Part shown: positions 33,225 to 34,739 of the stretch, piece after piece | Numbering within the stretch: the stretch's first letter is position 1 | Layout: the number at the start of each line of letters is the position of its first letter | Assembly: GCA_945868215.1 (NCBI GenBank) | Contig: CAMBLN010000005.1 | Coordinates: 1-39,318, forward strand | DNA from: Opitutus sp. GAS368 | GTDB taxonomy: Bacteria > Verrucomicrobiota > Verrucomicrobiia > Opitutales > Opitutaceae | DNA: 39,318 nucleotides | Reading direction: 5' to 3' | The notes under the pieces: generated by a model | The model's input: the letters and a program-made list of their open reading frames with translations, nothing else | Databases searched by the model: none | What the model was told of the DNA's origin: nothing | Position numbers and translations under genes: made by a program

Positions 33225-34739
33225 ATGTCCGCCGCCTACGAGAGACTTGTCGCCCGACTGAAACGCGCCCACATCCTGGGCACCGTTGCCGGCCTGCTGG
33301 GCTGGGACGAGCAGGTGAACCTGCCGCCGGACAGCGCGGACCAGCGTGCCGAGCAGTCCGCGCTGCTGGCGGAACTGCATCACGCGGCGGCCAGTGACCC
33401 GGAAATCGGCCGGCTGCTGGCCGAAGTCGAAAAGGAAGTTTGTCACTTATTAAGTGACAAACTTTCGGAGGATGTTGATGAGAAGGTGGTTTGGCGGGAG
33501 GCGAAGAAGGATTATGAGCGGGTGGTGAAGTTGCCGGCGGAGTTTGTGGCTGAGAAGGCGCGGCTCTCGAGCGCGGCTTATCACGGGTGGGCGGCGGCGA
33601 AGGGGAAGAGTGATTTCGGGGCGTTTGCGCCGTTTTTGGAGAAGCACTTGGAGATGGCGAAACAGGAGGCGGCGTATTTGGGCTGGGGAGACCGGGCCTA
33701 CGACTACGCGATCGATAAACACGATCCGGGCATGACGGCGGCGAAGATCACGGAGCTGTTTGCGGAATTGAAAGCGGGGCTCGTGCCGCTCGTGCGGGCC
33801 ATCGCGGCGTCGCCGGTGCGGGCGCGCACGGATATTTTCAAAGGGTTTCCGGTGGAGGCGCAGCGGGAGTTTTTGCGCGAGGTGACGGAGCGGTTGGGTT
33901 TCAACTATCGGCGCGGGCGGATTGATGTTTCACTTCATCCGTTCTGCGAGGGGTCGGGTGCGGATATCCGCATGACCACGCGGTTCGATGCGGATAATCC
34001 GCTCGATTCGCTGTTTTCGTCGATTCACGAGACCGGGCACGGGTTGTATGAACAGGGGTTGCCGCTGGCGGCACAGGGCACGCCGCTCGGGCAGAACGCG
34101 GGCATGGGCGTGCACGAGTCGCAGAGCCGGCTGTGGGAGAACCAGGTTTCGCGGAGCCGGGCGTTTTGGGCGTTTTTCGAGCCGCGTTTTCGCGAGAAAT
34201 TCCCGGCGCAACTCGCGGCGGTGTCGTCGGAGGAATTGTATCTCGCGGTGAATGAAGTCGCGCCGACGCTGATCCGCGTGGATAGCGACGAGGTGCATTA
34301 CAACCTGCACATCATTCTGCGCTTTGAGATCGAGCGGCGGTTGTTCTCAGGCGAACTCGCGGTGGCGGATCTGCCGGCGGCGTGGAATGCGTTGTCGCAG
34401 GAGTTGCTCGGGCTCACTCCGACGAGCGACAAGGTCGGCGTGTTGCAGGATGTGCACTGGTCGGGCGGGGCGTTCGGATATTTCCCGAGTTACTGTCTGG
34501 GCAACATGATGGCGGCGCAGTTGTGGTTTGCGGTGCGCGCGAAGTATCCGGAGTTGGATACGGATTTTGAAAAGGGGGATTTCGCGCGGTTGCTCGGCTG
34601 GTTGCGGGCGGAGATCCACGAACAAGGGCGGCGGTATGAAATGGGCGAATTGGTGCGGCGGGTGACGGGGGAGGAGCTTACGCCGAAGTATCTGCTGCGG
34701 TATTTGCAGGAACGATATGCGCCGTTGTATTTGAAATAA
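33225..34739 (+). CDS. M32 metallocarboxypeptidase (carboxypeptidase Taq family)
   Basis: The product has 504 residues from ATG 33225 (MSAAYERLVARLKRAHILGT), preferred over the GTG/ATT-rich frame further up. Zinc motif HETGH (268-272) with the family's second box GMGVHESQSRLWEN (294-307) and Asp/Glu-rich surroundings is intact; LLGWDEQVNLPP near the N-terminus is also typical. It removes C-terminal residues from peptides in the cytoplasm. Oddly, residues 71-80 (EVCHLLSDKL) are encoded by a 29-bp perfect palindrome containing two consecutive TTA codons in an otherwise G+C-rich gene. The insertion lies in the loop between helix LLAEVEK and the conserved KKDYERVVKLPAEFV. The tatD-like gene starts 1 base after the stop, so the two are likely co-transcribed. 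Confidence 0.93.
   Translation: MSAAYERLVARLKRAHILGTVAGLLGWDEQVNLPPDSADQRAEQSALLAELHHAAASDPEIGRLLAEVEKEVCHLLSDKLSEDVDEKVVWREAKKDYERVVKLPAEFVAEKARLSSAAYHGWAAAKGKSDFGAFAPFLEKHLEMAKQEAAYLGWGDRAYDYAIDKHDPGMTAAKITELFAELKAGLVPLVRAIAASPVRARTDIFKGFPVEAQREFLREVTERLGFNYRRGRIDVSLHPFCEGSGADIRMTTRFDADNPLDSLFSSIHETGHGLYEQGLPLAAQGTPLGQNAGMGVHESQSRLWENQVSRSRAFWAFFEPRFREKFPAQLAAVSSEELYLAVNEVAPTLIRVDSDEVHYNLHIILRFEIERRLFSGELAVADLPAAWNALSQELLGLTPTSDKVGVLQDVHWSGGAFGYFPSYCLGNMMAAQLWFAVRAKYPELDTDFEKGDFARLLGWLRAEIHEQGRRYEMGELVRRVTGEELTPKYLLRYLQERYAPLYLK
33436..33464. repeat. In-frame palindromic insertion within the M32 peptidase gene
   Basis: A perfect 14-bp inverted repeat around a single T: AAGTTTGTCACTTA (33436-33449), T, TAAGTGACAAACTT (33451-33464). 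It is an A+T-rich island in a G+C-rich gene, keeps the reading frame, and falls where family members vary in length. Confidence 0.9.

Follow-up and report, generated by a model that had tools for sequence, protein, structure and literature searches.

The perfect palindrome that lies in frame within a peptidase gene of Opitutus sp. GAS368 probably belongs to a selfish two-part system consisting of very small, dispersed palindromic insertion elements, each type of which is paired with a palindrome-specific helix-turn-helix (HTH) protein. The insertion and spread of the palindromes, the upkeep of their symmetry, and their linkage and coevolution with the HTH proteins are apparent from sequence comparison alone; neither movement in real time nor a new insertion at the strain level was seen.

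Within the window, that is, the whole stretch of 39,318 nucleotides that was analyzed, the palindrome is located in an M32 (Taq family) carboxypeptidase gene at positions 33225 to 34739 of the plus strand, as identified from the open reading frame (ORF), Pfam, and the comparison of orthologs; translated from 33207, the ORF matches PF02074 with 565 bits over residues 16–504 of 510. The 29-bp palindrome itself (AAGTTTGTCACTTA-T-TAAGTGACAAACTT, type TT; 33436 to 33464) consists of two 14-nt arms (33436–33449 and 33451–33464) that are 100% complementary and separated by a 1-nt spacer, and 8 exact copies are present among the listed matches in genome G000. Nested in it are a conserved 23-bp core (TTTGTCACTTAWTAAGTGACAAA; 33439 to 33461) and a 19-bp core of the superfamily (TGTNACNNAWTNNGTNACA; 33441 to 33459), which is found in the TT, GT, and CC types and for which contact with the HTH protein is inferred. 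The preliminary description had presented a perfect palindrome with two consecutive TTA codons, inserted in frame in an M32 gene, and this reading holds: the gene is intact, and the ORF remains open through the palindrome, which encodes residues 71–80 counted from the ATG at 33225 and reads ..GTT TGT CAC TTA TTA AGT GAC AAA CTT... Of the 13 genus genomes, 7 have an intact palindrome at these codons, G012 has a decayed one, and G003, G005, G006, G007, and G008 have none. The loop from EIG to VV comprises 25–56 residues when filled, 30 in G012, and only 15–18 when empty (the length in G007 was counted by eye); thus, orthologs that lack the inserted residues, which the preliminary description proposed to look for, do exist within the genus. 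The palindrome motif was found in none of 13 M32 orthologs from other genera and families. The insert is probably neutral for the enzyme.

When up to three mismatches were allowed, the 23-bp core matched once in the window compared to no matches in 100 shuffles, and 64 sites were detected in the 3.07-Mb genome compared to none with the reversed control; given these counts and the orthologs without the insert, an origin by chance or from ordinary codons was rejected. Pairing at positions 1–11 from the center reaches 97–100% in 60 G000 copies, against the 78–79% that is expected from column composition at the variable positions 3, 10, and 11. Some copies, chiefly those of G004, have longer arms of 18–21 bp, with outer letters that are specific to the locus; the element comprises a core of 19–23 bp and, with the outer arms, extends up to ~43 bp. 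With regard to the inverted pairs that characterize REPINs and BIMEs, 19 neighboring pairs less than 150 bp apart were counted among 169 copies, and their center bases are mixed; 18 neighboring pairs are spaced by 45–78 bp. At two G002 loci (L462 and L463), three and four palindromes, respectively, are arranged in tandem with a period of ~90 bp. In G032, the only genome with positions seen, the palindromes are spread over 0.2–5.8 Mb (the origin was not located). The G-rich strand carries the center T, the sole asymmetric base, in 45 of 47 G000 copies versus 76 of 121 copies from other genomes. In the window, several plus-strand genes score far below minus-strand genes of similar length in genus codon usage, which suggests a strong strand skew.

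We assigned 169 TT-type copies (at most two mismatches, more than 300 bp from the end of a locus) to genes predicted with a custom gene caller trained on the fetched loci: 48 (28%) are in predicted genes, 67, 30, and 19 are between tandem, convergent, and divergent genes, respectively, and 5 are at edges. Because 86.8% of the sampled loci are coding, intragenic copies are depleted approximately threefold. These 48 copies represent 21 gene families, of which 14 contain at least two copies (as a pair within a single ORF in 4 families), and 44 of the 48 reside in ORFs of at least 150 amino acids with a good codon score. All ten carrier genes checked against Pfam match known families, including allophanate hydrolase, Fmt, RsmE-like RNA methyltransferase, Ogt-like, HPPK plus anthranilate-synthase-like (PabB), class V aminotransferase, TatD, and NAD(P)H-hydrate dehydratase. 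The in-frame copies are inserted in either orientation (22 one way and 26 the other) and encode the peptides CHLISDK (23 copies), CHLLSDK (19), or close variants (6), with the consensus C-H-L-[LI]-S-D-K; on each strand, all copies are read in a single frame because the other two contain stop codons. In-frame insertion is tolerated, the core having one open frame on each strand. The surmise of the preliminary description that this is a family of protein-invading palindromes, with many genomic copies, some of them inside other genes, is thus borne out by the 64 core sites and by the intragenic fraction of the sampled copies.

Besides M32, six proteins were compared across the genus, namely, allophanate hydrolase (AtzF; 2 sites), Fmt, a methyltransferase (MTase), RsmE-like, PabB-like (3 sites), and Ogt-like, and their sites are filled in some species but empty or decayed in others. 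In all seven proteins, a single site carries different palindrome types depending on the species; the types observed at the gene sites of the genus are TT (TTTGTCACTTAWTAAGTGACAAA), CC (AGTGTCACCYAWTRGGTGACACT), a third type (AAAGTAACCYAWTRGGTTACTTT), and, in G010, TA. Strict genome-wide type switching was considered and dropped given that several types coexist in one genome. The MTase loop is a hot spot of insertion across the Opitutaceae: of 26 further genomes from other genera, 11 have a palindrome with at least 8/10 pairs at the expected offset, and two more have decayed ones. At this site, the palindrome type also switches between genera. Longer inserts, seen as split matches, are also present in the MTase loop of eight genomes (G015, G029, G056, G058, G059, G066, G022, and G028; L386–L393). 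Different palindromes at one protein site stay self-complementary, and their letters and the encoded residues change in pairs. When 20 of the 38 MTase genes were aligned, the paired cells amounted to 85.0%, compared to 71.2 ± 1.6% after shuffling, the covariation score is 0.396 compared to 0.142 ± 0.022 (0.03–0.13 in slid controls), and two-sided changes outnumber one-sided ones by 35 cells to 4. The remaining 18 genes, with no symmetric center at the expected codon, were left out, so this choice of genes favors symmetry. The peptide variants include CHLIGDT, CQLIVDT, CHLLDDT, CHVIRDT, CHLISDK, CNLISYK, and SNPIGYF; because these residues change pairwise as the symmetry of the DNA demands, we infer that the constraint acts on the nucleic acid rather than on the peptide.

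Every type of palindrome seems to have its own counterpart in a putative DNA-binding HTH protein of ~120 amino acids (Cro/XRE/YdaS-like), the gene of which is usually located beside or between copies of the palindrome. In G000, the gene for a 117-aa HTH protein is bracketed by two palindromes 436 bp apart, and the cassette of G007 is homologous to that of G000 from palindrome to palindrome; the 900-bp flanks of these two cassettes match nothing in the fetched loci except their own. Homologs of the HTH gene were detected in 32 of 71 Opitutaceae genomes, and 53 loci were examined (52 of the 65 homolog matches, the other 13 not being included, and the G007 locus). Strict palindromes (at least 10/11 pairs) occur at 3.04 per kb within 250 bp of the HTH gene versus 0.02 per kb beyond 500 bp. 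Within 400 bp of the gene, they flank both sides in 26 of the 53 loci, and in 25 of these the two sides share a type, the exception being G059_C159, where an unrelated GC-rich palindrome is found on one side; at least one side is flanked in 39 loci, and neither side in 14. Exclusion of the 4 loci that were reached through palindromes leaves 22 of 49 with the same type on both sides and densities of 3.05 versus 0.014 per kb. Under a laxer test (9/11 pairs, 300 bp), the gene is bracketed by palindromes in 9 of 13 further loci of the family from a profile search, and 12 of the 13 have a palindrome on one side or both. Five additional loci, fetched for their palindromes, are all bracketed (5 of 5), and no palindromes flank the two weak matches outside the Opitutaceae. 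In 26 cassettes, G059_C159 included, the distance between palindrome centers is 390–595 bp.

A genome can encode up to 8 paralogous HTH proteins, with site types that differ where compared; the flanking types include GTAACC, GTAACG, GTCACC, GTCACG, GTCACT, GTCAAC, GTCATC, TGCCG, GTCCG, and GTAGTT. One genome of the Opitutaceae, G249, shows eight matches to the HTH profile. The TT-type gene occupies one locus, with shared flanks, in the six genus genomes compared and hence does not appear to hop often. We detected no nuclease, transposase, or recombinase domain in the cassette protein. Pfam yielded only weak matches to YdaS or HTH_3, and an AlphaFold model of the L053 protein, itself weak (pLDDT 65), predicts the HTH helices at residues 66–74 and 78–84; fold matches were weak as well, HipB, CylR2, and C proteins among them, without any PDB match to the model at E 0.001 or better, and a PDB sequence search returned only weak HTH matches.

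The residues of the predicted recognition helix covary with the letters of the palindrome, a relationship that has been read from sequences and not from binding experiments. Among 47 HTH genes whose palindrome has 9/11 pairs or more, the ten strongest letter–residue associations involve residues 74–100 (G000_C16 numbering), in or next to the HTH; weaker ones are found elsewhere too (R117, T61, and P53). Position 3 of the palindrome is associated with residue 100 (C with R in 16 cases, G with A in 11, T with Q in 8, and other combinations in 3 or fewer each), position 6 with residue 92 (H accompanies C in 21 of 29 cases versus A in 1 of 13), and positions 4 and 8 with residues 87–94. Generally, a recognition helix with RVH goes with GTCAC and one with RVQ goes with GTAAC. 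Thus, in G010 (Q92), GTAAC is present in at least one half of 11/11 palindromes of that class, whereas in G000, G001, G004, G007, and G009, GTCAC is present in both halves of 130/134 palindromes, a count that is biased because the loci of the sister genomes, except for G000, were largely fetched with the exact GTCAC pattern. A search with the 29-mer, three mismatches allowed, gave 3 matches in G010 versus 39 in G000. The code has exceptions: L113 combines residue A, elsewhere found with G at −3, with TT palindromes, S92 of G007 is accompanied by GTCAC, and H92 of G084_C120 by GTAAC.

As far as sampled, the element is confined to one bacterial family, the Opitutaceae. Of 56 related genomes, 7 contain the 29-mer with up to three mismatches, and these belong without exception to the genus (7 of 13, versus 0 of 43 outside); a covariance model of the superfamily, built from 30 varied copies, detected matches in 38 of 54 Opitutaceae genomes versus 0 of 30 genomes from other families of the order; within the genus, G003 and G008 gave no model match, and G006 gave 3. 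Among the matches listed, those with a name are metagenome-assembled genomes titled Opitutaceae, Rariglobus, Opitutus, or just Verrucomicrobia/Verrucomicrobiota, and the exact core was not found in viral contigs. Likewise, a search of 387 genomes from the phylum gave strong HTH matches in the Opitutaceae alone (18 genomes), with four weak ones outside, and no HTH matches were found in plasmids or phages. In the 43 genomes covered by both the model and the HTH search, model matches number 0–86 in HTH gene-positive genomes (n = 20) versus 0–18 in gene-negative ones (n = 23; p = 8e-8 in a U test that takes no account of relatedness); these counts rest on at most 90 scored candidates with both strands counted and were used only as ranks. 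There are exceptions to this link: in G219, an HTH gene is present but palindromes are not, and in G065, the model gave 0 matches although the gene is flanked.

Conventional mobile elements occur in the vicinity of some palindromes. In G002, three copies of a DDE_5 insertion sequence (99.3–99.4% identical; terminal inverted repeat (TIR) CTGGAGTTTGGCC) each lie between two copies of a locus-specific palindrome (~29–43 bp), and so do three 0.5-kb units with the same TIR; the bracketing palindromes (at loci L456, L457, L458, L460, and L461) match including the outer arms, less exactly in L461. We infer that the whole palindrome was duplicated as the target, which would be expected if cleavage took place at the base of a cruciform extruded from the DNA. 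The 1.86-kb unit was rejected as an autonomous form of the palindrome given that it is a DDE_5 insertion sequence with a TIR of its own that sits beside the palindrome and doubles it whole; for its own TIR and its location beside the palindromes, it was also rejected as the parent of which the palindromes would be MITEs.

It remains to be considered whether the palindromes are REP-like elements that are moved in trans by a RAYT/IS200-type or other conventional transposase, with the HTH gene as a passenger or regulator. The size, the pairs, the intergenic preference, and the intragenic copies all fit, and Y1 transposases are present in 25 of the 33 genomes tested. Yet TGTNACNYANTRNGTNACA occurs in 0 of 30 sampled Y1 (PF01797) loci (24 of them in the family; up to 1.5 kb on each side, other palindrome types not scored), on which ground a RAYT link was rejected, and the flank profiles contain neither a GTAG nor a CGTC tag. 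Furthermore, orphan half-sites are at background (0–1 per genus genome and 2 in G004, similar to the reversed control, with a pattern that sees about three-quarters of the possible orphans), and hence there is no hidden element ending in half a palindrome. We therefore consider such transposition in trans unlikely. The absence of an excess of orphan half-sites also led us to reject a hidden element with half a palindrome as its terminal repeat and a MITE of a TIR transposon; pairs of DNA uptake sequences were rejected as well, single half-sites not being abundant.

Alternatively, the HTH protein could be a host nucleoid or segregation factor, such as Noc, MatP, or SlmA, and the palindromes its binding sites, maintained by selection to organize the chromosome. 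A cognate DNA-binding protein with dozens of sites per genome, both intragenic and intergenic, and paired changes that keep the symmetry are compatible with this role; but the palindromes are inserts absent from sister species, two genomes of the genus lack model matches altogether, the multiple HTH paralogs differ in site type where compared, and 18 neighboring pairs are only 45–78 bp apart, so that we assign little likelihood to this explanation. An element acting at the RNA level, as a terminator or mRNA-stability hairpin, seems highly improbable. Folding of the 53 nt around the palindrome does predict a strong hairpin (−20.7 kcal/mol, z −6.1 for RNA; −13, z −6.4 for DNA), and gaps between convergent genes are mildly enriched in palindromes (26% of 116 copies versus 15% of intergenic bases). 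However, the in-frame copies occur in both orientations, one-sided changes are few, and the letters of the palindrome track the HTH residues. The only Rfam families found in the window are two tRNAs, with none at the palindrome.

Under the two-part selfish system that we favor, the HTH protein would bind the palindrome as a dimer, an inference made without binding data, and would be needed for its spread or upkeep. No transposase was found in the unit; the spread is presumed to be replicative, based on a hairpin or cruciform and carried out by host enzymes, and an incoming type may overwrite an existing palindrome of another type. A bolder version can be offered only tentatively, namely, a transposase-free selfish repeat in which the HTH protein propagates its own binding site: the palindrome–HTH–palindrome cassette would be the autonomous unit, the solo palindromes would be its offspring, and changes in the recognition helix would drive the turnover of the whole palindrome population, including the copies in housekeeping proteins.

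Rickettsia palindromic elements (RPEs) are inserted in frame, and like these, the Opitutaceae palindromes are found inside many unrelated protein genes. We know of no HTH partner of RPEs. The likeness to RPEs that was drawn in the preliminary description stands with respect to behavior (in-frame copies in unrelated genes, absent from some orthologs) but not membership, in view of the lack of the CGTC tag and the different partner. The partner HTH gene, the covariation at orthologous sites, and the occurrence throughout the family were beyond what the preliminary description could see. RPE-4 and RPE-6 are CGTC REPs, RPE-1 is longer, and no linkage exists between CGTC repeats and transposase genes (PMC3733652); the Opitutaceae palindromes lack the CGTC tag and reside in a different host group. 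The same source describes REP/RAYT as repeats with a dedicated, flanked gene and reports REP palindromes inside ORFs of Opitutus terrae, a member of the same family (PMC3733652). Where the preliminary description knew of no such element in this group, intragenic palindromic repeats had therefore been on record, although of the GTAG-tagged REP kind. The present system is similar to REP/REPIN–RAYT in that small palindromes are dispersed as singles and pairs, mostly between but also within genes, and a dedicated gene is flanked by the repeats. It differs in the lack of an unpaired GTAG or a variant thereof (in the flank profile of 60 G000 copies and in listed copies of other genomes), in the long perfect palindrome with a 1-nt center, and in the HTH partner in place of a tyrosine transposase. 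The small dispersed repeats of cyanobacteria (Elhai, 2008) are reportedly very small mobile repeats of 20-odd bp, for which we are not aware of a cognate HTH gene. Cro/CI-like or C-protein repressors are small HTH proteins with a palindromic operator adjoining their own gene, and the HTH proteins described here resemble them in having a palindrome beside the gene; unlike those operators, however, the palindrome often brackets the gene, and it is dispersed in dozens of copies that also invade genes.

The palindrome/HTH system of the Opitutaceae works like REPIN/RAYT or RPEs but belongs to neither. That palindromes occur inside proteins and that repeats can flank a gene dedicated to them was already known; what is new is that the dedicated gene encodes a cognate HTH protein, and no palindrome family with such a gene was found in the open-licence literature searched. 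This connects a large, protein-invading repeat family with a DNA-binding protein that is small and variable and has a specificity code that can be read; the letter–residue table yields direct predictions for binding assays. This is a system in which the turnover of binding sites, the proliferation of repeats, and the lengthening of proteins can be followed together and, if the HTH protein alone drives the spread, it would be a kind of transposase-free selfish element.
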